DNA from: Gemmatimonadota bacterium
Lineage (GTDB): Bacteria; Gemmatimonadota; Gemmatimonadetes; Gemmatimonadales; Gemmatimonadaceae
Assembly: GCA_028287235.1 (NCBI GenBank)
Contig: JAQBQB010000002.1
Location: 310,001-374,000, forward strand
Reading direction: 5' to 3'
DNA: 64,000 bases
Each line of letters opens with the position of its first letter. The stretch's first letter is position 1. Below are positions 26,037 through 43,353 of this stretch, in pieces. Both the position numbers and the translations under genes were made by a program. Under the pieces are notes generated by a model. The model made no database searches. It saw only the letters and a list, made by a program, of their open reading frames with translations, and was not told where the DNA came from.

Positions 26037-26042
26037 CCTGAC

Positions 26043-28763
26043 ATGAGAAGACACCCATCGTTCCTGCCATCGGCGGTCCGTCGCATCTTCGAGCTGCCGC
26101 CGAGTACGGCGCGCGTCGCGCGCGAGCTGAGCGACGAGATGCGCATCCATATCGACATGCGCGTCGACGAACTGCGCGCGCTCGGCATGAGTGAGCCTGA
26201 CGCGCGAGCCGAAGCGCTTCGCCGGTTCGGCGACGGCGATGAGTTTCATGCCTACGCGGCGCGGCGCGCGGCCAAGCGCGCTCGCATGCATCGCATTGGC
26301 GAGTGGTTCAGCGAGTGGCGACAAGATCTTCGATTCGCACTGCGTCTCTTTCGGAAACATGCGCAGCTCACGCTGCTCGTTGTGTTCACGCTCGCCCTCG
26401 GGATCGGCGCGAACACCGCGATCTTCAGCGTCGTTCATCGTCTCCTTATCGCACCGCTTCCATACCGCGACGGCGACCGCATCGTGATGCTCTCGATGAA
26501 AGGGCGCGAGCATGGCTACTCGGCGCCGAGCGGCGACGCGGTGAACGTGTGGCGCACGCGCGCTCACTCGCTCGAGACCATCGCCGCGGTGCGCGTCGAC
26601 TACATCATGGTGCAGACTCCGGGCGAGCGCGACTCGATTGCCGCGTCGATCACGTCGAATTATTTGCGGATGCTCGGCATCCCGCCGGTGATCGGACGCG
26701 ATTTCACGCCGGAGGACGAACGGCCCGGCAGCCCGCGTGTTGCGATGATCAGCTACGGGCTGTGGCAGCGCGTGTACGGCGGCAGACCCGACGTCCTCGG
26801 CAAGCCGATCGCCGTGAGCGGCAGGACGGACAACCCGCATATCATCGTCGGTGTCGCGCCGCCGGCCATTGGACTGCCGATCTCCTACAATCCGCCAGGC
26901 AGCAAGTGGCGCGAAGCGACGCCGAGCATCTGGATTCCAACGAGTCTCGATTCATTGGCCGAGGGCTACACCTACGCCAAGCTTCGTGCCGGCGCATCGG
27001 CCGCTCAGGCCTCGAAGGAACTTCAAGGTATTCTCGACAGCGTACCGCCCCGGTCGAGTGGGACACGCGACGCGCCGGCCGCGTTGACGTGCTGCGCGCG
27101 CGCCGTCCGGCCGCAGGACATGCTCGATCCGCGCGAGACGCGTACCGTCGAAGTCCTCTTCGTCGCCGTCGCGGTGCTGCTGCTGATCGCGTGCGCCAAC
27201 GTTGCGAATTTGCTCTTGGCGCGCGCATGGACGCGCCGGCGCGAGTTCGCGGTGCGCATCGCGCTCGGCGCCGGACGCGGACGGCTCACGCGTCTCGTGC
27301 TCACGGAGAGCGTCCTCCTCGCTCTCGCCGGCGGCGTGCTCGGTGTCGCTCTCGCCTGGGGGATTCTGCACGCTGTCGTCGCCGTGCGCCCCCCTGCGCT
27401 CGAGAATCTCGACAGCGTTCGCGTCGAGCCAACGGTGCTTCTCTGGTGCGTAGCCGTGTCGGTGTTTACGGGACTCTTATTCGGGTCTGCGCCGGCGCTG
27501 CTGTCGATCGCCGCATCGGCGGGCGACGTGCTCAAGAGCGAGTCGCGCGCGAGCTCGGGCGACCGGCACGCGCGCCGCATTCGATCGGCGCTGATCGTCG
27601 CCGAGATCGCGATGTCCCTCGTGCTGCTGGTGGGCGCCGGCCTTCTCGTGCGCTCGTTCGTCGCGCTTCAGCACACGCCGCTCGGGTTCGATCCGCACGG
27701 TCTCGCCTCGGTTCAGGTGATTTTTCATCGTGGGCCGCGCCAGCAAGTCCCCGAGAAGCAGAAGGCGGTGCTCGGGCGACTACGCGCGATTCCCGGTGTG
27801 ACCGATGCCGCAATCGGGGTCATGCCGGGAGAGGCGTTCGGCGTCGCAGGCGAGCGCCTCGTGTCCGAGCCTGATGCGACGGGGCAATCGCGGAGCGTGG
27901 TGGCGTCGGGAGTGACGTTCATGTCGCCGACGTATTTCCGCGTCGCTCGCATGTCGCTGTGGCAAGGACGCGTGCCCGATGTAGAGACCGAAGTGTCGGC
28001 CGTGATGGGACCAGGTCCAATTCCGTCGCCAACGGAGATCGTGGTGAATCGCTCGCTCGCCGAGGGTCTGTGGCCGCACGAGAGCGCGATTGGGAAGCGC
28101 ATTCACTCGGCGGCAGAGCATGGCGACGGCCTGAGCTCGACCGTCGTGGGCGTCGTGGAAGATACGCGGATGCCTGGCCCGCGCCCGGCACTGGATGCGG
28201 AGATCTACCGGCCCCCGGTTCCAATTCAAACGCCCTTCGTCGTGCGCACGACGATCGCCCCGGCGGATCTCAAAGCCGCACTGAGTCACGCCGTTCTCGA
28301 GGCCGATCCGGGAAACATCGTGTATAGAATTACAATTGGAGACACCTATTTGCGCGACGCGATGGCACCGACGCGATTCGCGATGGCGCTGCTCGTGACG
28401 TTCTCGGGCGTTGCGCTGCTGCTCTCGGCCGTCGGCCTGTACGGCGTGATCTCGTATGCGGTGACACAGCGCACGCGCGAGATCGGCATTCGACTCGCGC
28501 TCGGCGCCGCGCCGCGGTCGGTGACGTCGTTGGTCGTACGAAGCGGAATGAATCTCACGGTGGCGGGAGTGGCACTCGGTGTCGTCACCGCCGTCGGTGG
28601 CACTCGCGTGTTGGGCGGGATGCTGTACGGTGTGCGTCCCGGCGATCCAACGACGTTTACGGCGATCGTTGCGCTCGTCGTCGCGATCGCGCTGACGGCG
28701 TGTTATGTCCCAGCCCGGCGGGCCGCGCACATCGATCCCACCGAGGCGTTGCGCGCGGAATGA
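26043..28763 (+). CDS. ADOP-type ABC transporter permease with prefix domain
   Basis: This 906-residue protein opens with the prefix domain (ARELSDEMRIHIDMRVDELR, MSEPDARAEALRRFGD). Two FtsX/MacB core modules follow, with helix LLVVFTLALGIGANTAIFSV near residue 110 and the middle and C-terminal three-helix bundles. The end, PARRAAHIDPTEALRAE, is the family hallmark. It likely needs a separately encoded ATPase. It is co-transcribed with the upstream PadR gene. The tRNA-Gly remnant at 28891 lies 127 bases downstream. Confidence 0.9.
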   Translation: MRRHPSFLPSAVRRIFELPPSTARVARELSDEMRIHIDMRVDELRALGMSEPDARAEALRRFGDGDEFHAYAARRAAKRARMHRIGEWFSEWRQDLRFALRLFRKHAQLTLLVVFTLALGIGANTAIFSVVHRLLIAPLPYRDGDRIVMLSMKGREHGYSAPSGDAVNVWRTRAHSLETIAAVRVDYIMVQTPGERDSIAASITSNYLRMLGIPPVIGRDFTPEDERPGSPRVAMISYGLWQRVYGGRPDVLGKPIAVSGRTDNPHIIVGVAPPAIGLPISYNPPGSKWREATPSIWIPTSLDSLAEGYTYAKLRAGASAAQASKELQGILDSVPPRSSGTRDAPAALTCCARAVRPQDMLDPRETRTVEVLFVAVAVLLLIACANVANLLLARAWTRRREFAVRIALGAGRGRLTRLVLTESVLLALAGGVLGVALAWGILHAVVAVRPPALENLDSVRVEPTVLLWCVAVSVFTGLLFGSAPALLSIAASAGDVLKSESRASSGDRHARRIRSALIVAEIAMSLVLLVGAGLLVRSFVALQHTPLGFDPHGLASVQVIFHRGPRQQVPEKQKAVLGRLRAIPGVTDAAIGVMPGEAFGVAGERLVSEPDATGQSRSVVASGVTFMSPTYFRVARMSLWQGRVPDVETEVSAVMGPGPIPSPTEIVVNRSLAEGLWPHESAIGKRIHSAAEHGDGLSSTVVGVVEDTRMPGPRPALDAEIYRPPVPIQTPFVVRTTIAPADLKAALSHAVLEADPGNIVYRITIGDTYLRDAMAPTRFAMALLVTFSGVALLLSAVGLYGVISYAVTQRTREIGIRLALGAAPRSVTSLVVRSGMNLTVAGVALGVVTAVGGTRVLGGMLYGVRPGDPTTFTAIVALVVAIALTACYVPARRAAHIDPTEALRAE

Positions 28764-28969: not shown

Positions 28970-30043
28970 GTGCATACACGGGTGCAGGTACACAACCGCT
29001 CGGCCACACCCGCAGGAGTGCTCGAGGTGTGGGCGATCTCCTGTCTCTACTCAGGAGGCCTGCCCGCGCTGCCGCGCACGGCCGCGTTGAACGGCTTCTG
29101 GACGCGCTTCGGCAGCAACGGCTCGCTCGACACCACGCTCGAGACATCGTCTCCGTGGATCGCGCTCGTGCCGCGTACGCCGACGCCCATGACCCACTAT
29201 CCCGTCACCGGCGTATTCGCCGAGTCGCCGGGGGTGGCGAGCTTCGAGGTGCCGGCCGGCGCGAGCGGCAACCACCGTTGCGTCGTCGCGTTCGTCCACG
29301 GGGTCGACGCGCCGCTCGACGTTACCGGTCTCACAACCTCCGTCGACGACGTGGTGCCGCGCCAACCCCAGGTGGCGCAGCGCAACATCAGCGTCGGCGC
29401 CCCGCTCTCCGCGTCGGCCGATGCGAAGCAGCCGTCACCGCCGGGTGAGCAGAGCGTCACCGGTCCCGGAGGCGCCGCCGCAAGCGTGCAACGGTATGTC
29501 GAGTTCCACAACCCGACGGCGCGCGCCAGCACGATGACGGTGCGAATCGACTCGGCGTCGCTGCCTGCGCCGTTGTCGCTGTCGTTCCGGCTCAGCGAGA
29601 ACGCGCGGCCTGCGTCGATCGTGGGCGCCACAAAGCGCGAGGTAGTCGCATCGCCGTTCAACCTGCTCTTCTCGCTCCTCGAGGAGTTCATCGCGTTCCT
29701 GCATGCGCTGCTCGGCATTGCGCCGGCAAAGCATTCGGCGCCTCGCAAGCTCCGCCTCGCCGACGTCTGGCACGACGTCGCGCCCGGCGTTGCCCCCGAG
29801 GTGCGCGACGTGCCGATCGCCGCGCATGGACGCATCGCCGCCGAGATTTCGATTCGCCTCGCTGGCGCGCTCGAGCCGGGCAGCGAGCACCGCGTCGACG
29901 TGTTGCACCTGGAGAACGGCCGCATCGTGGGCGGCGCCACGATCATCGTGCCCATTGCTGGAGTGCCGAAGTACGAGCCGGCGTGGGACGTCGACGGCGG
30001 CGAGGGCGAAGTTGCCGCGGAGGTGGATCGGCGCGACGCGTGA
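28970..30043 (+). CDS. Hypothetical protein, probably N-terminally truncated
   Basis: The 357-residue frame starts with GTG directly in a beta-domain-like sequence (RVQVHNRSATPAGVLEVWAI), 44 bases after the tRNA-Gly remnant. It has no signal peptide, although the composition looks extracellular. A stop codon lies four codons upstream. Similar VRVHNRG sequences normally occur inside longer secreted proteins, so the 5' part was probably lost at the tRNA junction. The remainder has two immunoglobulin-like segments and one hydrophobic helix (FNLLFSLLEEFIAFLHALLG). I recognise no specific family. It may be a pseudogene. Confidence 0.5.
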   Translation: MHTRVQVHNRSATPAGVLEVWAISCLYSGGLPALPRTAALNGFWTRFGSNGSLDTTLETSSPWIALVPRTPTPMTHYPVTGVFAESPGVASFEVPAGASGNHRCVVAFVHGVDAPLDVTGLTTSVDDVVPRQPQVAQRNISVGAPLSASADAKQPSPPGEQSVTGPGGAAASVQRYVEFHNPTARASTMTVRIDSASLPAPLSLSFRLSENARPASIVGATKREVVASPFNLLFSLLEEFIAFLHALLGIAPAKHSAPRKLRLADVWHDVAPGVAPEVRDVPIAAHGRIAAEISIRLAGALEPGSEHRVDVLHLENGRIVGGATIIVPIAGVPKYEPAWDVDGGEGEVAAEVDRRDA

Positions 30044-30095: not shown

Positions 30096-31391
30096 TCAAT
30101 ATCGTGGGCTAGCGTCGACCCATGCCTTGAGCTGGTCGAACGTTTGCGCGCCGAGCTTCGATCCGACGAGCACGCCGTCGCGGAACAACAGCGTCGTCGG
30201 CATCTGGTTGCGCGCCTCCGTCAGCGCGAGGCCCTTGCCGGACAGCGGGACTCTCGGCACATGTGTCTGGAAGGCGGCCCATTGCCGGAGAATCTCGCTC
30301 TCGGCGCTGCCGGGGTCGGCGGCCGCGGCCACCGACAGGTCCACGCCGCTCTCGGCGAAATAGGCGCGCGCGCGGTCGAGCTCCGTGAACGCGATCTGGC
30401 TGTGCGCGCTCCACGGCGCCCAGATCATGACGACGTTGAGTTTGTGCGCCGGCTGCGGCGTCTCCGGAAAGATGTCGTTCCACACGCGATGCTTCGGCAG
30501 CGGCTCCGCGACGGCGGGCAACGGCTGCGAAGCCACGTCGAGCACGTTGCTCGCCATCATGAACCCCCGATAGTCTGGCCCGTCGTACCGGAAGCAGAGG
30601 CGGCCGTCCTTCGTCCAGCTCGGAAAGACCGCGGATCCGCTGAGGCCGGGCAGCGTGCGAATCGTGCGCTGCTCGAGATCCACGACCTGAATGTCGTAGC
30701 CGGATCCGTTCGGCTTGAGCGCATGGAAGGCGATGTACCGTCCGTCCCACGAGAAGTCGGCCTTCGCTCCCTTGACGCCCGTGTCGAAGACGTCGTCGCA
30801 GTTGTCGAGGCCGCGCACGACGATGTTGCCCTCGACAAACGTCGTGATGCGTTTGCCATCTCTCGAGATGAGTGGCCGGTCGCCCGTATCCATCTTGCCG
30901 CACGACGCGACGCGTGTGACCGGCAGCTGCGCCTTGTCGCCGTTCAGATAGTAGTAATTGCTGGCGATGGTCAGGATCAGGTCGCGGCCGTCGCGCGTGG
31001 CCCAGCTGTAGTAGTCGCCCAATCCGGCGGGCGAGACGTTCTGGCTCACCGCGCCGGTCCGCATGTCCCGAATGCTCACGCCCACGCCCGAGTAGATGAT
31101 CCTGTTGCCATCCGGTGACCACCAAGCGTCGATTCCGTCCTCGGAGAACAGGATCTTCTTCGTCGCGAGATCCACCACGGTCTCCAGGGTGCGGATGCCG
31201 GTCGGATGACGCGCGTCGGTCTTTTCGGATGCATACACGAGCGTCCTGCCGTCGGGCGAGATGCGCGCGTACGCGAAGACGCCCTCCTTGGGCTTGAGCG
31301 AGAAGAGGCGCGTGTACTTCGGGGTCTGCCCCGCCGCCAGTTGCGCCATCATGGCGGCGGCGAGAGCAAGCAGAAATCTGCGTGGGAGCAT
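30096..31391 (-). CDS. PD40 beta-propeller fused to a thioredoxin-fold domain lacking CxxC
   Basis: This 431-residue protein has a signal peptide (1-21) and then a TolB-like propeller with repeated ISPDGRTLVYAS, WSPDGNRIIYS, FSWDGRYIAFHA and PSWTKDGRLCFRYDG blades. From about residue 315 it continues as a thioredoxin-like domain: KLNVVMIWAPWSAHSQIAFT, MPTTLLFRDGVLVG and FDQLKAWVDA. The usual WCxxC active site reads WSAHS, so no dithiol chemistry is possible there. It is last in the leftward operon that begins with the TonB-dependent receptor, 18 bases after the PD40 gene. Confidence 0.8.
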   Translation of the reverse strand: MLPRRFLLALAAAMMAQLAAGQTPKYTRLFSLKPKEGVFAYARISPDGRTLVYASEKTDARHPTGIRTLETVVDLATKKILFSEDGIDAWWSPDGNRIIYSGVGVSIRDMRTGAVSQNVSPAGLGDYYSWATRDGRDLILTIASNYYYLNGDKAQLPVTRVASCGKMDTGDRPLISRDGKRITTFVEGNIVVRGLDNCDDVFDTGVKGAKADFSWDGRYIAFHALKPNGSGYDIQVVDLEQRTIRTLPGLSGSAVFPSWTKDGRLCFRYDGPDYRGFMMASNVLDVASQPLPAVAEPLPKHRVWNDIFPETPQPAHKLNVVMIWAPWSAHSQIAFTELDRARAYFAESGVDLSVAAAADPGSAESEILRQWAAFQTHVPRVPLSGKGLALTEARNQMPTTLLFRDGVLVGSKLGAQTFDQLKAWVDASPRY

Positions 31392-31409
31392 GAGCGATCT
31401 CCTCCGGTC

Positions 31410-33323
31410 CTACGGACGGCCGCCGGCGCGCAGCGGCGACAGGTCCATCGTGAACACCCGCTGACCGGTGAACTCGTTGCTGACGTAATAGACGGTGCCG
31501 CCGTCGGGAGAGACGTTCATCTCGCCGACGAACAACTGTGGAAAGCGTACGAGCGTTTGAATGGCCTTCGTGGCCACGTTCACGACATAGATCGCCGGCA
31601 CCGGCTCGTCGTCCCCAGCACCGGCGAGGACCGCGAGCTGGTCCTTCCCGAGGAAGCGCAGTCCGGAGGCGCCGGGGTAAACGACGAACGGGAGGTCGAT
31701 CGTGACGCGGCCACCGCCATCCCGATTCACCACCTCGATGGCTTTCACCTGGCCTTCGTTCTGTTCGTTCGAGCGTCGGAAGGCAAGGCGCTGCCCGTCC
31801 GGCGACACCGCGACGTAGCCGGCGTAGCGATCGTTCGACGGCGGGAGCACGACGTTCTCGGTCGAGTCACCGTCGAGCGTCGCGAGGGTGACACTGCTGC
31901 CTCGGATCACCAACGCGTGTGATCCGTCGATGACCTGGGCGGCGATTGGCGTGGGTCCGAGGACCAGCTCCCGCAGCGTTCGCGCCTGGCCATCGAGCGT
32001 GACGCGTTGAATCATGGCCCGCCGAGCGGCGCCCGTTCCGCGAGTCGCGGACACGAGTACCGAGCGCGCATCGGCGTCCCACAGGAGCGACACCGCGAGT
32101 GCACGGATAGATAGCAGGCGAGTGACCGCTCCGCTCGCGACGTCCGCCGCATAGACGTTCGCCCCCGCGGCCGGCGAGCCGCACATGAACGCGATGCTGC
32201 GACTGTCCGGCGACCAGACGTTTCCACCACCGTAGCGTTCGGGCAGCTTGATGGTGTTCACCGGTGCGCCGCCGGCTCCGACGACGCGCACCTCGCACGC
32301 CTGTCCGACACAACGCACCGCGGAGACGAGCTGGCCGTCCGGCGACGGCGAGATCTCGACGAGGCTCTCGAGGCTATCGATGAGGACGCGACTCGAGCCG
32401 TCGCTCAGGGAATGCGCGCGCAGCCGCCGGCTGTCGCCGCGGTCGGAGAAGACGAGCGTCGAGGGCCCGAGCCAACCCTCGATCGTCTGTCGCGCCGGCA
32501 TCGGAAGGTTGCTGAGTCGCTTTCCCGAGCCGTCCGCGACGACGAGCCGCGCCGAGCTCGTGTCACCGTACACGAGGAGCGTTCCGTCGTTGGAGAGGCC
32601 GGGCCACCCGTTGCCGAGCTTCGGCACGACGACCGCGGATTCGCCGCCGTTCAGCGCGACGCGCCGCAAGCTGCCGGCGGTCTGCTTGAACGCCGGCTTG
32701 AGCTCCAGGCAGCTCCACTCGGGATCGCACGGCGGAGGGCCGTTCACGCTGTAGTAGATCGAACGTCCGTCCGGTGCCCAGCGAATGGCACTCATGCTGG
32801 AACGCTGGAGAGGAACGACGGTTCGCTCCCCACCGCCGCCGACCGCGACCACCACGACGCTCTGGCCGACGCCGCCAGCATCGTCGTGCGCGAAGGCGAT
32901 CCAGCGGCCGTCCGGCGAGAAGGCGGGCGCGTCGCCCTGCCGCGCGCTCGCGCGGCGTTCGGCGCCGCTCGCGACGCCGGTGCGCCCATCGAGCGGCAGG
33001 ATCCAGATGTGCTGATCCGCCGAGCTCGCGTCGCGCTTCACGTAGGCAAGCGCGTTTCCGCTGGGCGCGACGACCAGATCGGAATTCTCGCCTCCGGCGA
33101 GTCGCACGCTGCTCTTGTCGGAGCGGTCGTAGAGCCAGATCGCGCGCGTGGAGTCGCCGTAGTACACGCGCCGCGCGTCCGCGGTGAGCGCGAACTGCGT
33201 CACGCGCACGCCGGGCGGCAGCACGCCGGACAAGCGAACCTGCTCCGGCGCGGCGGCTTGGGCACCCCCGAGCGCGGGCAGCCCCGCTAGGCAGAGACCA
33301 GCACCGACCAGGCGGCGCATCAT
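31410..33323 (-). CDS. Secreted WD40-like (PD40) beta-propeller protein
   Basis: This 637-residue protein has a signal peptide (MMRRLVGAGLCLAGLPALGG). About ten PD40 blades follow with the SPDGRxxxY core (APSGNALAYVKR, FSPDGRWIAFAHDD, RWAPDGRSIYYSV, SPDSRSIAFMCG, VSPDGQRLAFRRS, VSPDGGTVYYVS). It resembles the TolB/DPP-IV N-terminal propeller but has no peptidase domain. It should be periplasmic or surface-associated and bind a partner. I preferred the ATG at 33321-33323, which opens the signal peptide and leaves 34 bases after the upstream gene, over an earlier start that overlaps it. Confidence 0.8.
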   Translation of the reverse strand: MMRRLVGAGLCLAGLPALGGAQAAAPEQVRLSGVLPPGVRVTQFALTADARRVYYGDSTRAIWLYDRSDKSSVRLAGGENSDLVVAPSGNALAYVKRDASSADQHIWILPLDGRTGVASGAERRASARQGDAPAFSPDGRWIAFAHDDAGGVGQSVVVVAVGGGGERTVVPLQRSSMSAIRWAPDGRSIYYSVNGPPPCDPEWSCLELKPAFKQTAGSLRRVALNGGESAVVVPKLGNGWPGLSNDGTLLVYGDTSSARLVVADGSGKRLSNLPMPARQTIEGWLGPSTLVFSDRGDSRRLRAHSLSDGSSRVLIDSLESLVEISPSPDGQLVSAVRCVGQACEVRVVGAGGAPVNTIKLPERYGGGNVWSPDSRSIAFMCGSPAAGANVYAADVASGAVTRLLSIRALAVSLLWDADARSVLVSATRGTGAARRAMIQRVTLDGQARTLRELVLGPTPIAAQVIDGSHALVIRGSSVTLATLDGDSTENVVLPPSNDRYAGYVAVSPDGQRLAFRRSNEQNEGQVKAIEVVNRDGGGRVTIDLPFVVYPGASGLRFLGKDQLAVLAGAGDDEPVPAIYVVNVATKAIQTLVRFPQLFVGEMNVSPDGGTVYYVSNEFTGQRVFTMDLSPLRAGGRP

Positions 33324-33357
33324 ATGATATGTCGTAGATATATGGTACAACCCGACG

Positions 33358-34683
33358 TCAGCGGATGGCGGCGCGCTCAACCTTCACGCCGCCGTCGTCG
33401 CGCGACGTCAAGTACACGGCCCCACCCGTTCCGAACCCGGCGATCGTCCGTCCCGCCGGCACCTGCACCCGATCGATCAGTTCGCCCTTCGGGTTGATCA
33501 CGTCGTAGATCGGACCGGCGATTGCGCCCTGCCGCGTGGCCGTCGTGCGCACCCAGAGATTCCCATCGGCGTCGCCGCGCACCGCCATCGGGCCCACAAA
33601 CACCGGACGATAGTCGGGGAGCTCGCTCGCCGTGACGAAAGTCGCCGGAGGCAGCACCGCCGTGGCATTGGCCGCGCCGGCGCGCGCGCCCTCGAGCGCG
33701 CTGCGCATCCCGTCGGCTCCGCCGCCGCCAACGGCGATCCGCGTCCCCGTCGCAAACCCCATCTCGGCCGCGCGCGCCGCCGCCGCCGGACCGGCCGCCC
33801 GCAAACGGTCATACGCCGTCTTCGCCGAATCGATGACGGCGACCTTGTCTTCGTCCGTCAGCCGCTGCCATTCGTACGGGATCTTCGGGTTCGAGGTGAT
33901 CTTTCCGTCCGCCGCGAGCCGATCGACATGATAGTCGCGCCCGCGCACGATCACGATGGACCCGTTCGGCAACACGGCCCATTCGTCAACGGCCTGCAAC
34001 GGATTGATCTCCGGCATCAGCGTCGCGCCGGCATCCGTGCGCGTGATGTTCATCTTCGTCCGCGCGATCTTGAAATACCCCAGCGTATCCGACTTGCGCG
34101 TCACCAGGTCGATGGCGACCACTGCCGCCGAATCCGGCTGCTCCGGCATGCTGAACGTCTGCGCGTTGGACGCTCCCATCGTGATCGGCGGCAGCGCCGA
34201 ACGGACCGGCGTGCGATACACGAGCCGACCCTTCCCGTCGAAGCCGGGCGATCCGAATGCCGGATTGACCAGTGACGGCGCATCCTGCGACCGCGGCACC
34301 GACATCACGCGTGCGATCGCGCCGCTCGGCGACAGCACGAGCATCGACAACGAGGCGCCGTCCACGAACAGCGTCGAATCGCCGTACGGGATCAGCGCGC
34401 CGCCGCGCGGGCCGTAGGAGTTACCCGCCGTCGACGAATCCAGCACGACGCTGGCGGTGGCCAAGCTGGAATCGAGCAGCACGAGTTGCCGCTTGCCCAC
34501 GTCGTTGACCAGCACTCCGCCGTTCAGCAGCTGGCGCACGGTCGTCACGCTGCCGAACACCGTCTTGGATGCGGCGCTCGGAAGATTGAGCAGGCGGACG
34601 CGCGGTGCCTTCTGCGCCCCGAGCGGCGCGTGGACCGCGGCGCACACCAGGAGCGCGGAGGCCGAAGCTATACGTGTTCTCAT
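33358..34683 (-). CDS. Secreted 6-bladed beta-propeller-like protein
   Basis: This 441-residue protein has a signal peptide ending LGAQ. It consists of repeats with the pattern of NHL/6-bladed propellers: VRQLLNGGVLVNDVGKRQLV, YGDSTLFVDGASLSMLVLSP, FDGKGRLVYR, VLPNGSIVIVRGRDYHVDR and RGDADGNLWVRTT. An alanine-rich helical insertion (about 285-345) interrupts it. No catalytic residues are evident. It lies between the TonB-dependent receptor and the PD40 gene. The protein at 39966 across the divergent promoter has a similar plan, suggesting related roles. Confidence 0.75.
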   Translation of the reverse strand: MRTRIASASALLVCAAVHAPLGAQKAPRVRLLNLPSAASKTVFGSVTTVRQLLNGGVLVNDVGKRQLVLLDSSLATASVVLDSSTAGNSYGPRGGALIPYGDSTLFVDGASLSMLVLSPSGAIARVMSVPRSQDAPSLVNPAFGSPGFDGKGRLVYRTPVRSALPPITMGASNAQTFSMPEQPDSAAVVAIDLVTRKSDTLGYFKIARTKMNITRTDAGATLMPEINPLQAVDEWAVLPNGSIVIVRGRDYHVDRLAADGKITSNPKIPYEWQRLTDEDKVAVIDSAKTAYDRLRAAGPAAAARAAEMGFATGTRIAVGGGGADGMRSALEGARAGAANATAVLPPATFVTASELPDYRPVFVGPMAVRGDADGNLWVRTTATRQGAIAGPIYDVINPKGELIDRVQVPAGRTIAGFGTGGAVYLTSRDDGGVKVERAAIR

Positions 34684-34717
34684 GAGTCGCGGGGTTGAGG
34701 AAACTGGAACGAGCTGT

Positions 34718-37700
34718 TCATCGAACGATCCGGATCTCGGTCGAGCCTCCGCCCGGGATCATGTTCGCGCCGGGAAGCATCATCATACCCTGCCCGAAGC
34801 CCGCGGTGCCCGAGCGAATCGAAGCGAGGAACCGCGTGTCGAGATAGTTCGCGATGAACGGAGAAAGGCGCCGCCGCTGGTCGGACGTCAGCAACGACCG
34901 CACATCCGGCGCGATGCGCAGCAACAAATCCACCGATGCCTCGCGCGCGCGCTTGAACCGGTCGTACGCCTCGTCCTGGCTATACACCTCCGGCAGCGCG
35001 GCGAGATACTTCACGACGGGACTCCAGATCGAGTCGAGACGCAGGGCGAACCACCGATTGAGCGCGGCGATGCTGTCGGCCTGCACGCTCGACAACTTCA
35101 GCGTGTCCGCCTCGCCCAGGATCTGAGCCAGCGGATTGGGCATGCTGCCCGTGCCGTACATCGCTTTCAGCGTCCCCTCGGGCGTCCTCTGGCCGCCGAG
35201 TCGCCGGCCGCGATCGAGCATCATCGACAGCGTCTGCCGCTCGCGCGTGGGACCCACGTCGAAGCGAATCATGGCCGTGAGCGTGACCGGGTTGCGTACC
35301 GTGGTCTGCTGCAGTGCCGTGGCGCCGAACCGCTGGTTGACGTCGTACCTGAACCGCTGCGTGGTCGGATCGAAGCCGCGCACCGCGAGCAGTTGCGACG
35401 ACGGGAAGCCTTGCTGTCCCCATCCGTGCAGATGGCCTTCGCCGTGAGCCAGCAGATCGGCGGCGCCGAGCGGGTTGGAGAGCTGGAAGGTGAGCGCCGC
35501 ACGCTGCGGGAGGCGCAGCTTCGCCGGATTGACGAGGGAGAACGTGAGGTTCGCGCTGGGCATCCACGGGCCGACGCAGCTGTTGCGGCCGGCGAACCGG
35601 CCGAGCTGACGCGACAGGCAGTCGCGCGCCGACCGCGAGCCGTTGGCGAGCAGCGAGCGCATGTTGGCCGCCAGGGAGGAATCCGTGGTGTGCGCCGGAT
35701 CGAAGATGAACGCGCGATCGTTCGCGTAGCCATCGCCGTTGACGTCGCCGGAAACCATCGGGGTGTACGGCAACCCCGACTCCAACCGCCCGTTCCAGCT
35801 CACCTGGAGCGTATTGAAGAAGTTGTATCCCAGGCCATACGTGATCTGGTGGCGCGACGTGAACGACGAGCGTCCCCATCCCGTCTCGAACGGATTGCCA
35901 CTGGTGCTGGCGAATCCGTTGAACTGCTCGCGATTGTCGGCAAACACGTAAGACAGATTCCAGGTATACGAGGTGTTGAAGGTAAACGGCGCCACCCGAA
36001 CCATGAGCTGCCGCGTTTCCGAGGCCAGGTCGGAGCGCAGCACGCTGACGTGATTGAACGTCGGCGAGACGCGCGCGTCACGCGCGCCCACGGCACCCGA
36101 TTGCGGCACGATGCTCGTGGGCTGCGCGAACACCGGCCGGTCCGCTTCGTCCGCGAGGGCGAAACGAACGTTCGGCGCGAAATTGAGGTCGACCGCGCCC
36201 GCCTGATGCGTCGTGCGCGCGAACGTGCCGTCGATGAATAATGAATAGCGGGCATCGAGCACCATTCCGCTCCAGTTCAGATTGCCGCTGGTGCGCCGCG
36301 CCCCGCCATAGTGCGGATCGAATAGCGTGACGTTCGGCACCGTACTGGAGAAGACCGTGCCGCTCGTGCCGTCCGCGCATTGGGTCGGTATGGCCCCCGG
36401 ATTGCCGGCGTAAGTCCCCCACGCAGGCGTCGGTGTCGCGGCTCCCACGCAGGCCAGCTGCTGCAGCGCGTCGGGCAGACCGGTGTTGTCGAGCGCCTGT
36501 CCGATACTACTGACGGTCGACACATTCTGGAACACCCCGACGCCGCCGCGCACCACCGCGCGCGGTCCGCGCACCGCGCCGTTGAATGCGGCGAGCTGCG
36601 ACGACGTCCCGTACGTCCACGCGAACCCGATGCGCGGGCTCAGATACACGCGATTGGGCACGTCGTCGTTCGACAGCCCGTAGGTGCGCTGCACCTCGGA
36701 GTTCAGGGTCGGGTTTGTGAGGAAGCGATTCGCATCCGCGCGCAGCCCGTACTGGATCTGCAAGTCGTTGCTCGGCCGATAGGTATCGCCGAGCGACGCC
36801 GCGCCGACGACCTGCCCCGCGGTGTGCTCCTGCGGCTTCAGCGACCGGGTGAACGCCGTGGGACGATTGGCTGCCAGATCCGCTAGCGAGTTGTAGGTGA
36901 ACGAGCCCAGCGTGTTCAGCGACAGGTTCTGCTCGAAGGACTCGTGGCGCAGCTCTGTGGTGAACTTGAGCCGATGCTTGTTGTCGACGCTCGCCCACGA
37001 AAGCTGATTCATGAAGTTCTGCGACAACGACTGAATGCTGGTGCTCAACGGGCTGCCACCGAACGCCACCGTCGAGACGCCGGTCGTCCCGTTGGAGTTC
37101 AGCCGGACGTTCCCGCTCGGTAGGTCGAGGTATGGCGACGAGTAGCTGCGCTGTCCGCCGATCCCCAGCGACGTCTCGCTCAACACGAATCCATAGTAGT
37201 TCGTGTACCGGCCCTGGAGCGTGGCGTTCCAACTGGTCCGGTCGGTCGCGTGCGACGGAAGCTCCGTCGGCTGCATCGAGGACGGCGTCTGCTTCGTCCA
37301 AGAGCCTGTATAGGTGACGTTGATGGCTTGGCCCGTGGCCGACGTCGGCGGATTGAGATCGAAGCTGCCTAACAGGGTGCCCTGGTCGCTCAGCTTGCGC
37401 CGCGGCGAACGGTCGATCGCCGTCGGAACGTTCGCGGCGCCGAGGAGCGACAGCAGCCGACGCACCGAATCCGGAGAAAGGCCGGCCGCTTGGAGACCCA
37501 AGGGGCCCGTGTTCAGCAACGTCTGAAGATCGTTCGACTGCCGACCGAGCTGATAGCTGACGTAATAGAAGGCCTTGTCGGGGACGATCGGACCGGCGAG
37601 CGATCCGCCGAGCGATCCGCTCGTGTATTGCTGGCCGAGCGCACGGCCGGCTGGGTCGGTCCACTGCAGTTGCGGCGCCGCAAAAACGAAGCTGCCCATC

Positions 37701-38443
37701 CGGCTGCTGATGTTGCTGCCGGGGCGCGTGCGCAGGCTGAACTGCGCGCCGGCGAATCCGCCGCGCGACACATCATATGGATTCAGAGCGAGCGTCGAGC
37801 CGAGGTTCGCGTCGCGCGGCACGTTCGCGCCGCTGAAGCTCAACCCGTTGAGCGTTGTGGTGTTCTGATCCGGCGCCAGGCCAAGCACCGAGAAGCCGTT
37901 CGTGCCGTCCCCGTTCGGGGTCAGCTGCACGCCGGGAATCGACGCGGCCATGGCGGCGAGATTTCCGAGCTGATCCGCGGCCAGCGCCGAGTTCTGCGTC
38001 GTGCGCTCGGTGCCGCTGACGTCAGGCGTGCTCTCATTTCGCCCGACCTTCTGGCGCTGGGCGTTCACCTTGATGGCGTCGAGCTGCACCGCGTTGATCT
38101 GCAGCTTGGCGTCGGCGACGAGGATGTCCTGATCGGCGGTCCGCTTCACCTCGAAGTGCTTGGCGAGGAATCCGATGGCGGCGACCGACACGAAGTAGTC
38201 GCCTTCGTCGCCGGGGAAGACGATCTGAAAGCGGCCGTCCTTGCTGGTTTTCACACTTCGGTTGACGTTGCCTTGGAGCGAGGTCGCCTTGATGGTGGCG
38301 TTTTCAACCGGCTTGTTGTCGGGACCGGTGATCCGGCCTCGAATGACGTCAGACTGCGCCTGTAGACCGGCGCGGACCAGTGGCGAGGCGACGGCGACGG
38401 CGGCGATGGCGGCGACGACGTGGAGCAGGCGGCTGAGACTCAC
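34718..38443 (-). CDS. TonB-dependent receptor with regulatory-like domain and C-terminal helical extension
   Basis: This 1241-residue protein has a signal peptide (1-30) and a carboxypeptidase-regulatory-like domain (about 32-115, IRGRITGPDNKPVENATIKA). The plug (about 150-240, GFSVLGLAPDQNTTTLNGLS) and a long beta-barrel to about residue 1070 follow. The barrel does not end the protein. About 157 further residues (encoded by 34718-35191) are mostly helical (ALNRWFALRLDSIW, LTSDQRRRLSPFIANYLDTR), resembling Spy/CpxP-type periplasmic domains. The GTG at 38441-38443 gives the best signal peptide. It heads a four-gene leftward operon and is divergent from the cysteine-rich peptides. The ligand is unknown. 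Confidence 0.82.
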   Translation of the reverse strand: MSLSRLLHVVAAIAAVAVASPLVRAGLQAQSDVIRGRITGPDNKPVENATIKATSLQGNVNRSVKTSKDGRFQIVFPGDEGDYFVSVAAIGFLAKHFEVKRTADQDILVADAKLQINAVQLDAIKVNAQRQKVGRNESTPDVSGTERTTQNSALAADQLGNLAAMAASIPGVQLTPNGDGTNGFSVLGLAPDQNTTTLNGLSFSGANVPRDANLGSTLALNPYDVSRGGFAGAQFSLRTRPGSNISSRMGSFVFAAPQLQWTDPAGRALGQQYTSGSLGGSLAGPIVPDKAFYYVSYQLGRQSNDLQTLLNTGPLGLQAAGLSPDSVRRLLSLLGAANVPTAIDRSPRRKLSDQGTLLGSFDLNPPTSATGQAINVTYTGSWTKQTPSSMQPTELPSHATDRTSWNATLQGRYTNYYGFVLSETSLGIGGQRSYSSPYLDLPSGNVRLNSNGTTGVSTVAFGGSPLSTSIQSLSQNFMNQLSWASVDNKHRLKFTTELRHESFEQNLSLNTLGSFTYNSLADLAANRPTAFTRSLKPQEHTAGQVVGAASLGDTYRPSNDLQIQYGLRADANRFLTNPTLNSEVQRTYGLSNDDVPNRVYLSPRIGFAWTYGTSSQLAAFNGAVRGPRAVVRGGVGVFQNVSTVSSIGQALDNTGLPDALQQLACVGAATPTPAWGTYAGNPGAIPTQCADGTSGTVFSSTVPNVTLFDPHYGGARRTSGNLNWSGMVLDARYSLFIDGTFARTTHQAGAVDLNFAPNVRFALADEADRPVFAQPTSIVPQSGAVGARDARVSPTFNHVSVLRSDLASETRQLMVRVAPFTFNTSYTWNLSYVFADNREQFNGFASTSGNPFETGWGRSSFTSRHQITYGLGYNFFNTLQVSWNGRLESGLPYTPMVSGDVNGDGYANDRAFIFDPAHTTDSSLAANMRSLLANGSRSARDCLSRQLGRFAGRNSCVGPWMPSANLTFSLVNPAKLRLPQRAALTFQLSNPLGAADLLAHGEGHLHGWGQQGFPSSQLLAVRGFDPTTQRFRYDVNQRFGATALQQTTVRNPVTLTAMIRFDVGPTRERQTLSMMLDRGRRLGGQRTPEGTLKAMYGTGSMPNPLAQILGEADTLKLSSVQADSIAALNRWFALRLDSIWSPVVKYLAALPEVYSQDEAYDRFKRAREASVDLLLRIAPDVRSLLTSDQRRRLSPFIANYLDTRFLASIRSGTAGFGQGMMMLPGANMIPGGGSTEIRIVR

Positions 38444-38962
38444 GGGAGTTTCACGGTCGGAGTGGGGGCCTGTCGAAGCGCGTTGGGCACGGCGTCGGAG
38501 CCCTCGGTGCGCATACAGCAATTGGACCCGCGAACCCCGCTGAGGGTTTCCATGCGACTATGCCACCGCGCCGAGGAAATCGCAACAGTCAGGCAAGCTC
38601 ACGGGCCGTGTCGCGGGGCGGATGATAGCCTTGGCATTAAGAAACACAAATAAACAAATGGCGATTATGAGAAGCTTCTAATATAGTTTTTCGCTCCATC
38701 ACGGGCCGCGCACCGTTTTCTGTCGCTTCCGATGCGACACAACAACATGGCGATGGCTATTAGTATGTCTTAATATAACGATTTGAACGATGCTTGTTAC
38801 AAATCTCTTGACAGTTCGCTCACAAACGCGCACCATACCCCTCGCGAACACCCGACGTTCTCATGGCCGCCGCAGCGTTCAGCGTCGGTGGCGTGCTGCT
38901 CCTTGCGATTTCAGTCGCCTTCCCGAGCGACCACTCCTCACCTTTATCTCTGGAGCATCATC
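38444..38962. promoter_or_regulatory. AT-rich divergent promoter region
   Basis: This 519-base gap separates the receptor operon from the peptide genes. From about 38630 to 38810 it is markedly AT-rich against a GC-rich background. It includes a perfect palindrome AGAAGCTTCT (38670-38679) and TTGACA (38808-38813) followed 17 bases later by CACCAT, a weak rightward promoter. A leftward -10-like CTATATTAG lies near 38680-38688. No gene is supported here; the frame upstream of the first peptide lacks coding character. Confidence 0.5.
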
Positions 38963-39193
38963 ATGAAGAAACAGTTGGCGGTCGTGAGAAACCTGTGCGC
39001 TGCGTCTGCCTTCGCCCTGGTTGGCCTCGGGCTCACTCCGTCTCACAGCGCGGCCGCGGTGAACGCCGCGAACAAGGGGATGGTCTGGTGCACCAACGTT
39101 GGCGAGTGCGTGTACTGCACCGACGGGGCCTGGATGGGCTGCGAACTGTGGGCCTGCGGCGACGTCGTCATGGTCGCGTGCTATGGCGGCTGA
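38963..39193 (+). CDS. Secreted cysteine-rich small peptide 1
   Basis: This 76-residue protein is the first of three tandem paralogues. The leader (MKKQLAVVRNL, hydrophobic AASAFALVGLGLT, then SHSAAA) is a Sec signal with a likely cut after AAA, leaving about 43 residues that begin VNAANKGM. The mature part has six cysteines in CTNVGECVYC, GCELWAC and VACYGG, enough for three disulfides. TGGAG lies nine bases before the ATG. The leader is nearly identical among the three while the core differs, as in precursor-peptide families. Function unknown; secretion and disulfide bonding are inferred. Confidence 0.8.
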   Translation: MKKQLAVVRNLCAASAFALVGLGLTPSHSAAAVNAANKGMVWCTNVGECVYCTDGAWMGCELWACGDVVMVACYGG

Positions 39194-39231
39194 TACCCGC
39201 CGCCACGACTGCCGTTGACAACTGCCTTTCT

Positions 39232-39253
39232 GACCGCCTTCCCGGACGACGAT
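39232..39253 (+). repeat. Conserved 22-base element upstream of peptide 2
   Basis: GACCGCCTTCCCGGACGACG plus AT lies 32 bases before the peptide 2 start codon. The same 22 bases with one change occur at 39569-39590, 31 bases before peptide 3. A diverged form (AGTCGCCTTCCCGAGCGACC) lies at about 38913-38933 before peptide 1. It is either left over from tandem duplication of whole units or a common regulatory element. Confidence 0.7.
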
Positions 39254-39285
39254 GTCCCAGACCCTCTCGCACGTGGAGCCTGTCC

Positions 39286-39513
39286 ATGAAAAATCAATTG
39301 GCTGTTGTCAGAAACCTGCTGGCCGCGTCTGTCTTCGCCCTCGCTGGCCTCGGGCTCACTCCGGCTCGCAGCATGGCCGCGACGAACGCGGCGAACAAAG
39401 GAATTCTCGCGTGTGGCTACTACGATGGTGGCTGGTGTGTCGCCTGCCTGACCACTGATTTCTGCGTGGCCTCCTGCTGTGGTGGCTGTGACCTCATCGA
39501 AATCAGCTGCTGA
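39286..39513 (+). CDS. Secreted cysteine-rich small peptide 2
   Basis: This 75-residue paralogue has leader MKNQLAVVRNLLAASVFALA and a likely cut after SMAA. The mature part of about 42 residues starts TNAANKGI and holds eight cysteines: LACGYY, GWCVAC, FCVASCCGGC and a C-terminal ISC. The spacing C-x2-C, C-x3-CC-x2-C and the terminal Cys are shared with peptide 3. The TGGAG ribosome site before the ATG is conserved in all three. It lies 92 bases after peptide 1 and is preceded by a 22-base element also found before peptide 3. Confidence 0.8.
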   Translation: MKNQLAVVRNLLAASVFALAGLGLTPARSMAATNAANKGILACGYYDGGWCVACLTTDFCVASCCGGCDLIEISC

Positions 39514-39568
39514 GACTCACGCGCGCCGGTGCCCTGCACTGGCGCGCGCTCGCATTTGCGCTCATCCC

Positions 39569-39590
39569 GACCGCCTTCCTGGACGACGAT
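39569..39590 (+). repeat. Conserved 22-base element upstream of peptide 3
   Basis: GACCGCCTTCCTGGACGACG plus AT matches the element at 39232-39253 in 21 of 22 positions and has the same distance to the following start codon. Confidence 0.7.
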
Positions 39591-39621
39591 ACCAACACCC
39601 TCTAATACCTGGAGAATCATC

Positions 39622-39834
39622 ATGAAGAAACACCTTACGGTGGCGAGAAACCTCCTCGCAGCATCTGCGTTCGCGCTGGTCGGGCTTGGCATGACGCCGT
39701 CTCGGAGCGCCGCCGCCGTGAACGACAAGGGCATCATCGTTTGCGTCTCTGATGGAGACTGTTCCGCCTGTACCGATGGTAATTGCGTCGCGGCCTGCTG
39801 CGGAAGCTGCAATATCATTATTGTGGTTTGCTAA
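39622..39834 (+). CDS. Secreted cysteine-rich small peptide 3
   Basis: This 70-residue paralogue has leader MKKHLTVARNLLAASAFALV and a likely cut after SAAA. The mature part of about 38 residues starts VNDKGIIVC and holds eight cysteines: DCSAC, NCVAACCGSC and a C-terminal VVC. It ends on Cys like peptide 2, after a very hydrophobic IIIVV stretch. It starts after CTGGAG. The 131-base gap to the next gene contains no further copy. Co-expression with the downstream propeller, DsbA-like and S41 genes is likely from orientation and spacing. Confidence 0.8.
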   Translation: MKKHLTVARNLLAASAFALVGLGMTPSRSAAAVNDKGIIVCVSDGDCSACTDGNCVAACCGSCNIIIVVC

Positions 39835-39965
39835 TCGTCGTAGCCACGCTGTACTAGAAGTCTCAATCAGAATCCCGTTGGACTTTTGGGCTTGATTGTC
39901 CGGGAAGGCGATCAGCTCGCCGGCGCGATGACGATTCTCCGACGTAACTGATTCCTGGGAGCCAC

Positions 39966-41129
39966 ATGCCGAGCCGCATGCCGACACGCAGTCGTTCCAT
40001 CTTGTTGTTGATTTGTGCCGCCGTGCCGGCGCTCGGCGCCTCCGCCGGCCGGTCGGCAGTCCCCTCCTGCGCGGCGCGCGAGGGCGGAAGCCGATGGGAG
40101 CCATCGCCGGCGCGGCAATACCGAGCGAAGGAAGCGTTCGGACGCGGGACCAACGGGCCGTTCGCGGGCATCCAGAGCGTCGTGGTCGCGAAAGACGCGG
40201 TGTACGCGAACGATTCGAAGAGCAGCGTCGTCACTGTGCTGAGTCCCGACCTCAAGCTCGTCCGCCGTATCGAGCTCCGCGTGCCGACGCAAGGCATGGG
40301 GATAATGATGGGCACCATGGGCAATCGCCGTCTCCTCGACGTCACCGATTCCGCGGTGTACGTCTACGACGGAAAAGGCGTGACGGCATTCTCGCACGCC
40401 GGCGCGTCCCTCGGCGAGACGCGGCTGATTCCGGCGGGCCTCGCGCCGTTCTCCGTCATCGGGATCCAGGCCGTCGGCCCCAACCTGCTGTTCGGCGTGG
40501 ACTCGATCAGCCGCGAGGAGCGCCACCTGCAACTGTGGTCGGCCCCATTGAAAGGCGGAGCAGCGACGCGCGTTCCGTTCGACGTTGCGCTCCGGGGACC
40601 CAAGGGCGGCGTAATGGTCCTCAGCCGCAACAACCCGCGCCCGCTCTGGGTCGCGAGCGGCCGCTGCGTGATCGCCTCGGATGGCGAGAACGAATGGATT
40701 CTTCGTCATGCGCTCGACAGCCGCATGGCGGACACCATCCGCCTGCCGCGTCTCGAAGTGCAGGCCCAAGCCGACGGCGACGACGACAACGAGAAGGCGA
40801 GGGAGCTGCTCGGCGCACTCCAGGCAAGGCGCGGAGTGAAATCGAACCCCCTGGGGGCACCGGGCGTCGGCGGGACCGGCGTCCTGCGATGGACCGACAT
40901 GATCGTCGACCCCGACGGTTACCTCTGGATCGAGTTGCGGCGACCACCGAACGACGCCAAGGCGGCAGTGCACGTGTACCGGGTGAATCTCGCCACGGGC
41001 GCCGTCGAGAAAGACGTCCTGCCCGCGTTCCCGGCGGCCTTCGGCCCACCCGGCAGCTACTACGCACGCGCGACCGATGCATCCGGCACACCGTATGTCG
41101 CGCGCTATGAACTGACCCCTTCGCGATAA
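39966..41129 (+). CDS. Secreted 6-bladed beta-propeller-like protein
   Basis: This 387-residue protein has a signal peptide (SRSILLLICAAVPALGASAG). Its body is propeller-like: GIQSVVVAKDAVYANDSKSS, VTVLSPDLKLVRRIELRVP, LLDVTDSAVYVYDGKGVTAF, GENEWILRHALDSRMADTIR and VDPDGYLWIELRRP. An acidic helical insertion (ADGDDDNEKARELLGAL) lies near residue 265. GGGAGCC precedes the ATG. It follows the three cysteine-rich peptides and precedes the DsbA-like gene by 11 bases. Small secreted peptides beside 6-bladed propellers also occur in Bacteroidota (NVEALA-type loci), a possible analogy. Confidence 0.75.
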   Translation: MPSRMPTRSRSILLLICAAVPALGASAGRSAVPSCAAREGGSRWEPSPARQYRAKEAFGRGTNGPFAGIQSVVVAKDAVYANDSKSSVVTVLSPDLKLVRRIELRVPTQGMGIMMGTMGNRRLLDVTDSAVYVYDGKGVTAFSHAGASLGETRLIPAGLAPFSVIGIQAVGPNLLFGVDSISREERHLQLWSAPLKGGAATRVPFDVALRGPKGGVMVLSRNNPRPLWVASGRCVIASDGENEWILRHALDSRMADTIRLPRLEVQAQADGDDDNEKARELLGALQARRGVKSNPLGAPGVGGTGVLRWTDMIVDPDGYLWIELRRPPNDAKAAVHVYRVNLATGAVEKDVLPAFPAAFGPPGSYYARATDASGTPYVARYELTPSR

Positions 41130-41140
41130 CGAGGCCCTCC

Positions 41141-41800
41141 ATGAAGAAGTTCTCCGAGAAGCTCGTCATGCTCACGAACATCCTGGTCATCGTCGCCTTT
41201 CTCGTGTTCATCGTCGGGCCGAACGGCGTCGTGTACGGCAAGTGGAAGGACTGGCGCACGACCGCGAAAGCGCAGCAGCAAATCGCCGACAAATGGCCTG
41301 CGCTCACCGAGGGCGGCTCGCGCCTGGACACGGGAAAGACGGCGCCGGCGTTCGTCGAATTCGCCGACTATCAGTGCCCCTTCTGCAAGAATGCCGGGCG
41401 GACGATGGAGCAGTGGCTGGCGTCGAATGACACGGGCGTCGTCTTTCGGCACCTGCCGCTCACCGCGATCCACCCGGCCGCCGACGGCGCCGCGCGTACT
41501 GCGATCTGTGCCGAGGCGCAGGGGCGCTTTCGCCAGATGCACCACCAGCTCTTTGCGGACAACACGTGGGAGAAGGACACGAACTGGGTTCGCGAGGCAA
41601 CGGCGGCGGGCGTCCCGGACATCCCGGCCTTCGAGGCCTGCCGCCATAGCGAGAAGACCACTGCCCGGCTCAATGCGGACATGAAGCTCGCCGAGGGCCT
41701 CGGCATCAAGGGCACGCCGACTTACGTCGCGCGCAACGGACTTCGCCAGGGCATCCTCACCGACGATATGCTGCGCCTCCTCACCCAGAAAGGTCAATGA
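41141..41800 (+). CDS. Membrane-anchored DsbA-like thiol oxidoreductase
   Basis: This 219-residue protein has an N-terminal membrane helix (LTNILVIVAFLVFIVGPNGV, 12-31). The thioredoxin-fold domain follows with active site FADYQCPFCKNAGR (CPFC) and the cis-proline loop GIKGTPTYV. A helical insertion (MHHQLFADNTWEKDTNWVRE) lies between them. It should catalyse disulfide formation or exchange outside the cytoplasm. Its place eleven bases after the propeller gene and downstream of three cysteine-rich secreted peptides suggests it oxidises those peptides. That link is inference from context. A perfect 14-bp hairpin follows. Confidence 0.88.
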   Translation: MKKFSEKLVMLTNILVIVAFLVFIVGPNGVVYGKWKDWRTTAKAQQQIADKWPALTEGGSRLDTGKTAPAFVEFADYQCPFCKNAGRTMEQWLASNDTGVVFRHLPLTAIHPAADGAARTAICAEAQGRFRQMHHQLFADNTWEKDTNWVREATAAGVPDIPAFEACRHSEKTTARLNADMKLAEGLGIKGTPTYVARNGLRQGILTDDMLRLLTQKGQ

Positions 41801-41875: not shown

Positions 41876-42009
41876 GCCGCCAGGCAAGAGCGGCGGCGCG
41901 CGTCACGCCGTTCTTGCTGCTCGCGGATTAATCGAACCCTCATGTTGGCGCAATGGTCCTCGCGCCTGGTCGGCCGTATCTATCAGCCAACCACGGGCTC
42001 GGAGACCCC

Positions 42010-43353
42010 ATGACGCATTCGTCATTGCGCACCGCCGTAGTCGCCGTACTAGCAGCGCTCCTCGCAACAGCGTCGGCCGGCGCACAAGCCGCCAATCTGA
42101 CTACCACACCCGCTGGCCGCGTGCTCAAGGCCTGGCTCGACGCGATCAACAGCGGTGACACGGTGCGGATGAGCACCTACGTGCGACAATACGAGCCTGC
42201 TGCCTCCGTCGCCGAACTGGCGGCACGCCACCAAAGAATCGGCAATATCGAGCTGCTCACGGTGGAGCGCAGCGAGCCGCGGCACATTGAATTCACGATA
42301 CACTCCGCGGCGCAGAGTATCGACGGTTTCGCATATCTCGACGTCACTGCGGCCGAGCCGCCGCAGGTGGGCCTGTTCCCGCTCATCGTGCCTTTTCCGC
42401 AAGGCGGAACCCTCGCGTCGCTCTCGGTCGACGCCGCGGCCCGCGCGCAGGCGATCGATGGCGCGAGCGCGCAGTTGGATACGTTCTACGTCTTTCCCGA
42501 GGTCGCTCGGCGCCTCGCCGATTCGTTGCACGCGCGTCTGAAGCGCGGCATGTACGATCGCTACACCAACGGCGTGATGTTCGCCAAGGCGCTCAACGAC
42601 GAGGTGCGCGAGATCTCGCACGATAAGCACATGGGCGTGCAATACTCGGTGAATCCGATTCCGGTGCGGCCGCCGGGGCCCCCGCCGGCGCCGACGGCCG
42701 AGCAGTTGAAGCGCATGCAATCACAGATGGACGGCGTGAACTGCGGCTTCCAGAAGGTCGAGCGGCTCGACGGCAACGTGGGCTATCTCAAGTTCGATTT
42801 CTTCGCTGACCCGGAGATGTGCGGCCCAACGGCATCGGCGGCGATGAACTTTGTCGCCGGGGCGCGGGCCCTGATCGTCGACATGCGTGAGAACGGCGGC
42901 GGCAGCCCGGCGATGGTGACATACGTCGCGTCGTACCTGTTCGACGACTCGACGCACCTCAACGATCTCTGGGATCGCAAATCGGGCAACACCACGCAGT
43001 TCTGGACCAAGCCGGGTGTGTCGGGCAGAAAGTTCGGCGCTGACAAGCCGGTGTTCGTGCTGACGTCGTCGCGCACATTCTCCGGTGCGGAGGAGTACAC
43101 GTACGATCTGAAGACGCAGAAGCGGGCGACGATCGTCGGCGAAACGACGGGTGGCGGCGCGCATCCGGTGGCGGGACGGCGAATCAACGAGCATTTCATT
43201 ATTGCCGTGCCTGGCGCGCGCGCGATCAATCCGATCACGCACACGAATTGGGAGGGCGTCGGCGTCGAGCCGGATGTCAAAGTGCCGGCAAAGGACGCAC
43301 TTGCGACTGCGCTGCGGCTCGTGAATGAGAAGGTGGGGGCGGCGAGGCCGTAG
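42010..43353 (+). CDS. S41 family (C-terminal processing-type) peptidase
   Basis: This 447-residue protein has a signal peptide ending SAGAQA and an N-terminal helper region with an NTF2-like look (RVLKAWLDAINSGDTVRMST). The S41 domain contains VGYLKFDFF, ALIVDMRENGGGSPAMV and the nucleophile region VFVLTSSRTFSGAEEYTYDL with the catalytic Ser, then GETTGGGAHPV. No PDZ domain is evident, as in the IRBP-like branch. GGAGA lies four bases before the ATG. It follows the DsbA-like gene by 209 bases with a hairpin between, so co-regulation is possible rather than certain. It could process peptides outside the cytoplasm. Confidence 0.88.
   Translation: MTHSSLRTAVVAVLAALLATASAGAQAANLTTTPAGRVLKAWLDAINSGDTVRMSTYVRQYEPAASVAELAARHQRIGNIELLTVERSEPRHIEFTIHSAAQSIDGFAYLDVTAAEPPQVGLFPLIVPFPQGGTLASLSVDAAARAQAIDGASAQLDTFYVFPEVARRLADSLHARLKRGMYDRYTNGVMFAKALNDEVREISHDKHMGVQYSVNPIPVRPPGPPPAPTAEQLKRMQSQMDGVNCGFQKVERLDGNVGYLKFDFFADPEMCGPTASAAMNFVAGARALIVDMRENGGGSPAMVTYVASYLFDDSTHLNDLWDRKSGNTTQFWTKPGVSGRKFGADKPVFVLTSSRTFSGAEEYTYDLKTQKRATIVGETTGGGAHPVAGRRINEHFIIAVPGARAINPITHTNWEGVGVEPDVKVPAKDALATALRLVNEKVGAARP

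Follow-up and report, generated by a model that had tools for sequence, protein, structure and literature searches.

One system or two: a Gemmatimonadota locus with Cys-rich peptides, a DsbA, propeller proteins and a TonB-dependent-receptor-type protein

The 64,000-nucleotide stretch of DNA analysed here, referred to below as the window, carries two sets of genes placed back to back. The plus-strand side consists of three Cys-rich peptides in tandem, predicted to be exported, followed by a propeller protein and a DsbA; on the minus strand lie a receptor and its associated genes. A sequence-only reading of the window suggested that the two sides form one two-sided system, and the question is whether they are indeed parts of one system or two unrelated units that happen to be neighbours. 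Gemmatimonadota are widespread, little-studied bacteria, and recurring sets of peptide, oxidoreductase, propeller and receptor genes would provide a testable handle on their uncharacterised secreted peptides.

Gene content around the divergent region

Peptide 1 (38963..39193, 76 aa) has a Sec-type leader and a Cys-rich core with six core Cys, and it is followed by peptide 2 (39286..39513, 75 aa) and peptide 3 (39622..39834, 70 aa), each with eight core Cys. Downstream on the same strand are an exported propeller (39966..41129, 387 aa), of NHL/6-bladed type according to AlphaFold2 and Foldseek, and a membrane-anchored DsbA (41141..41800; PF01323, 2.8e-15). The minus strand encodes a TonB-dependent-receptor-type outer-membrane protein with an N-terminal carboxypeptidase-regulatory domain (34718..38443), a propeller-like partner of 441 aa that forms a conserved gene pair with it and is recognised by profile similarity (33358..34683), a PD40 propeller protein without a hydrolase domain (31410..33380; PD40, 5e-21), and a PD40 propeller protein with a thioredoxin-like domain that has W-x-x-W-S-A-H and no Cys (30096..31391; PD40, 7e-9). 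All of the genes named in the earlier reading lie where it had placed them, and the gap between the two sides (38444..38962), bounded by the GTG start of the receptor (38443) and the start of peptide 1 (38963), is exactly 519 bp long. This gap had been described as an AT-rich divergent promoter. The composition holds, at 55.7% GC against 65.9% for the window and 39% in the lowest 100 bp; as for a promoter, a single, weak promoter-like match was found, and the description amounts to a statement about composition.

Propeller-type proteins do occur on both sides as claimed, although those of one side are not closely related to those of the other (E 0.18 in a pairwise comparison). Thioredoxin folds had likewise been assigned to both sides. 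That of DsbA stands (PF01323, CPFC), and on the minus side the domain is confirmed to be free of Cys, with W-A-P-W-S-A-H-S at the place of W-C-x-x-C. The AlphaFold2 model of this PD40-thioredoxin protein (pLDDT 86.6) combines a propeller with a downstream unit of the order beta-alpha-beta-alpha-beta-beta-alpha. Because its top Foldseek matches span the propeller part only, the thioredoxin fold is suggested by the order of secondary structure together with weak NCBIfam matches (E 0.05-0.08). That the locus might be a lasso peptide cluster, complete with a receptor and an isopeptidase, was considered and rejected, since the match of the PD40 protein to the isopeptidase model is confined to the propeller and scores 48.6 bits against a cut-off of 400 bits.

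Two MacB-like (FtsX/MacB) permease genes (window 23018-28763) and a PadR-like regulator (25671-26036), all named by reading the sequence, lie to the left of the cluster. An S41 peptidase gene (41953-43353) starts 152 bp past DsbA. Homologues of this peptidase and of the hypothetical protein at 28970-30043 were sought at other DsbA loci and none was found at E<1e-15; both genes were therefore excluded from the system.

Recurrence of the peptide, DsbA and propeller genes

The leaders of the three peptides are mutually 69-81% identical, and their cores 27-32% identical outside the shared Cys; for peptide 2 against peptide 1 the values are 79% and 29%. None of the three matches a family in Pfam or NCBIfam. 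A wider trial for NVEALA or any other family, with 17 peptides in Pfam and seven in NCBIfam, gave nothing above cut-off, and a peptide profile search across the class returned convincing E-values solely for the window's own three. Cys peptides at other loci were called by a rule (a leader and at least five Cys) and not by homology, a rule that may overlook genuine peptides and let in false ones. The core sequences so collected diverge strongly between loci, with little in common besides Cys, and across this system each has about 6-11 core Cys. The diversification of core relative to leader was not observed in the other tandem pairs (L263, L282).

The DsbA of the window scores 57 bits with PF01323, against a cut-off of 25.6. 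Its CPFC active site is directly evident and is conserved in the DsbA alignment along with the TP loop; a second Cys pair (C123, C167) is conserved as well. The Pfam score, the CxxC and the TP loop together mark it as a predicted DsbA-family oxidoreductase. To avoid bait bias, a DsbA profile was searched across the window's family, yielding 40 further loci chosen without regard to receptors. An exported Cys-rich peptide lies within 400 bp of 21 of the 42 DsbA genes at these loci. Of 240 control genes, 2 have such a neighbour, which gives an odds ratio of 119 (P 4e-18), and among low-scoring DsbA genes the count is 3 of 20. Gene neighbourhoods and their statistical recurrence are here observed directly, in relatives that are mostly draft genomes and with several loci cut by contig ends. 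A rule anchored on DsbA offers a way to find short precursors overlooked by homology searches. At four loci (L259, L262, L263, L266) MacB-like permeases adjoin or lie near DsbA; these, and the two to the left of the window's cluster, could be exporters, although the numbers are small.

The 387-aa propeller has no Pfam family. It and the PD40-thioredoxin protein are the two propeller proteins whose folds were predicted, and its own AlphaFold2 model (pLDDT 81.8, pTM 0.82) shows a propeller. Foldseek matches it, at a generic level, to propellers of NHL type and of other kinds, among them Bacteroides DUF4221 and the BtuB-BtuG complex. Homologues, about 30% identical, are present in 24 of 294 other genomes of the class, and none was found in the two congeners within this sample. 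Named relatives in a scan with a narrowed propeller alignment were mostly Gemmatimonadetes MAGs, with weaker matches including Longimicrobiales and Palauibacter; a plasmid search gave no match. Two sister loci have propellers that score above the cut-off of Pfam DUF5128 (L218, 2.4e-6; L296, 7e-7). In 10 of 23 members of the propeller family the gene is immediately preceded by a short exported Cys-rich frame, compared with 0 of 199 other genes, and the adjacency of peptide and propeller genes is tight, often with overlap. Peptide, propeller and DsbA follow one another in the same order as in the window at L036 and L052, which belong to distant Gemmatimonadota families, and no receptor relatives were found at the loci of propeller homologues in distant families. 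Two consecutive pairs of a small Cys peptide and a propeller, with a propeller-DsbA pair on the opposite strand, occur at L035 (6663-9862) and L037.

Bait searching with the PD40-thioredoxin gene located it in 5 of 179 family genomes, at seven places, and the PD40 protein travels with it. In L218 it is divergent from a set comprising DsbA, a propeller, a short lipoprotein-like gene, a Cys peptide, a receptor and the first part of a 441-type propeller gene. It occurs with DsbA and a Cys peptide in L220, while in L219 its neighbours are a 441-type propeller and a Cys-rich protein. The pair of PD40 and PD40-thioredoxin genes is found without peptide or DsbA in L217 and L076, and on the short contig of L228 with little flanking context. 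At L219 (12616-13607) a propeller-like gene is apparently split into two frames, beside a Cys-rich protein of 171 aa.

The receptor with and without peptide genes

The receptor matches OMP_b-brl_4 (1.9e-19, 70 bits, cut-off 30) and CarboxypepD_reg (3.4e-12) in Pfam, and its Plug domain falls just under the cut-off of 23.9 bits (20.8 bits, 5.7e-4). Its relatives are near-universal, being present in 72 of 74 other genomes of the window's family, and a paralogue with 58% identity lies elsewhere in the window's genome. At each of the 14 receptor loci checked the receptor gene is followed by one for a 441-type propeller, the gene pairing expected of a BtuG/XusB-like lid. No DsbA was found near these 14 loci, and no Cys peptide in their 270 kb. 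The 441-aa propeller itself has no Pfam family and no lipobox by eye; a propeller fold is suggested by a profile comparison, in which it resembles the propeller family of the plus side (88.8% probability, 94 columns). L090 (9843-16322) has a receptor relative with five ORFs in tandem behind it, all related to this 441-aa propeller.

A receptor relative nevertheless adjoins a peptide or DsbA, in varied orders, at L218, L263, L264, L270, L273, L289 and L293. The last six of these fall in the 40-locus DsbA set, where 0.06-0.6 such loci would be expected by chance (P 6e-11 to 4e-5 for six or more, by a simple Poisson estimate with 3 to 30 receptors and 4000 genes per genome and loci treated as independent). 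In L218, L264 and L293 the receptor is on the same strand, inside the peptide/DsbA cluster. Most peptide-DsbA loci are without a receptor. The full divergent layout of the window was seen at no other locus examined, and has partial echoes in L273, where DsbA is divergent from a receptor, and in L218, where PD40-thioredoxin is divergent from the peptide operon.

A tree of 22 receptors places those of L264, L273, L289 and L293, from four genera and all linked to DsbA or peptides, in one clade (support 100/97). The receptor of the window groups with others of its own genus, that of L218 with one of its genus, and that of L270 elsewhere, while L263 branches outside the main group; an earlier receptor tree agrees on the placement of the window and L218. 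The receptors of the window, L218 and L270 sit among receptors of non-peptide loci, apart from the peptide-linked clade, a distribution that points to repeated recruitment. The receptor seems to have joined peptide/DsbA loci several times, through one dedicated clade and several separate recruitments.

Interpretation and relation to known systems

Conserved divergence, one of the checks that the sequence-only reading had set, did not bear it out: in most relatives either half is found by itself, the outcome it had named as counting against it. The opposite conclusion, that the two sides simply do not belong together, was dropped after the PD40-thioredoxin bait, and then the DsbA profile, revealed recurrent linkage. 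Since the halves occur alone yet their parts reunite in other orders, one system remains plausible; a conserved two-sided operon does not, the layout being private to the window's genome.

That the same parts regroup in shuffled orders points to a hitherto undescribed peptide system, of which the receptor would be a recurrent but optional member. The window rather probably holds one member of such a recurrent, modular Gemmatimonadota system, made up of peptides, their own DsbA and propellers, with the receptor as an optional partner. Small Cys-rich precursors would be exported via a Sec-type leader, and the membrane-anchored, cluster-specific DsbA would form their disulfides in the periplasm, so that in the window the peptides would be oxidised by the neighbouring enzyme. 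The co-encoded exported propeller may then bind or protect the peptide once it has folded. A TonB-dependent-receptor-type protein and its propeller partner would have been recruited at some of the loci, in the window together with the PD40/degenerate-thioredoxin protein, and the receptor would most likely recognise the peptide, or a ligand that it carries, at the cell surface; binding or uptake of the peptide may follow. It is a more tentative suggestion, and one we hold to be doubtful, that Gemmatimonadota possess a new class of highly variable disulfide-rich peptides, each encoded with a dedicated DsbA and in many cases with a propeller, which after release are recognised or retaken through a TonB-type receptor. 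Were this true, such recognition or re-uptake would serve signalling, ligand scavenging or competition. A literature search on Gemmatimonadota that combined Cys peptides with DsbA and TonB, together with related terms, gave no matching description and one for NVEALA found nothing, most subscription papers being outside the scope of both.

The two sides might instead be unrelated, adjacent by chance, with a receptor and propeller for nutrient uptake, like BtuB/BtuG or XusA/XusB, next to a separate peptide-propeller-DsbA module. The receptor-propeller pair is conserved alone (14/14), 72 of the 74 other genomes in the family carry a receptor relative, the 58%-identical receptor lies elsewhere in the same genome, and the peptide module stands alone in other families. 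Against this, receptors adjoin DsbA or a peptide at 6 of 40 loci where at most 0.6 are expected, there is a dedicated receptor clade besides several separate recruitments, and the receptor lies on the same strand within the cluster in L218, L264 and L293; chance adjacency is therefore unlikely. Less probable still is that the peptides are small protein subunits docking into propellers rather than secreted messengers or weapons, with the receptor incidental. Cys-rich light chains dock in some periplasmic dehydrogenases. The tight, often overlapping peptide and propeller genes would fit such a role, and the PD40-thioredoxin model does match a quinohemoprotein amine dehydrogenase chain, at rank 34 among many propellers; no cofactor-forming enzyme or cytochrome was recognised in the cluster, however, and the cores have little in common besides Cys across loci.

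A further explanation is a version of the favoured modular system with a purpose added: the peptides would be disulfide bacteriocins acting on neighbouring bacteria, matured by DsbA, with propellers or the receptor providing immunity, release or target recognition. The conserved leader and diversified core in the window, the strong differences between cores of different loci, the MacB-like permeases near DsbA in L259, L262, L263 and L266, and the dependence of staphylococcal TMcin on a cluster-encoded DsbA-like enzyme (PMC13252029) are in its favour. We hold it to be somewhat unlikely: neither an immunity gene nor a dedicated exporter was recognised in the plus-strand operon of the window, no diversification of core over leader was observed in the tandem pairs of L263 and L282, and no known bacteriocin family was matched in Pfam or NCBIfam.

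Several known systems share features with the modular peptide system favoured here. Like membrane-anchored DsbA-like oxidoreductases, the DsbA of the window belongs to the DsbA family and has the CxxC and TP loop, its nearest solved structures by profile being the DsbA-like 3gyk and 4pwp; unlike them, it is encoded beside Cys peptides and has a conserved second Cys pair. In the NVEALA type of Bacteroidota, small exported peptides are encoded beside 6-bladed propellers. The window has the same juxtaposition, and the DUF5128 matches of the L218 and L296 propellers are a further likeness, but its peptides give no NVEALA match, and a dedicated DsbA and receptor linkage are added. TMcin/TmcD combines a small disulfide precursor having one disulfide with a DsbA-like enzyme in the cluster, an ABC exporter and an intramembrane protease (PMC13252029). 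Small precursors and a cluster-encoded DsbA are common to both, whereas neither ABC exporter nor intramembrane protease was recognised at the window and the peptides have about 6-11 core Cys. Finally, XusA/XusB (PMC13142918) and BtuB/BtuG (PMC10404256) of Bacteroides are TonB receptors with a propeller lid, and XusA bears an N-terminal carboxypeptidase-like domain (PMC13142918). The receptor of the window similarly adjoins a propeller gene and, like XusA, has an N-terminal carboxypeptidase-regulatory domain; it differs from both in that its partner propeller is without a lipobox by eye, and in having peptides and a DsbA next door.
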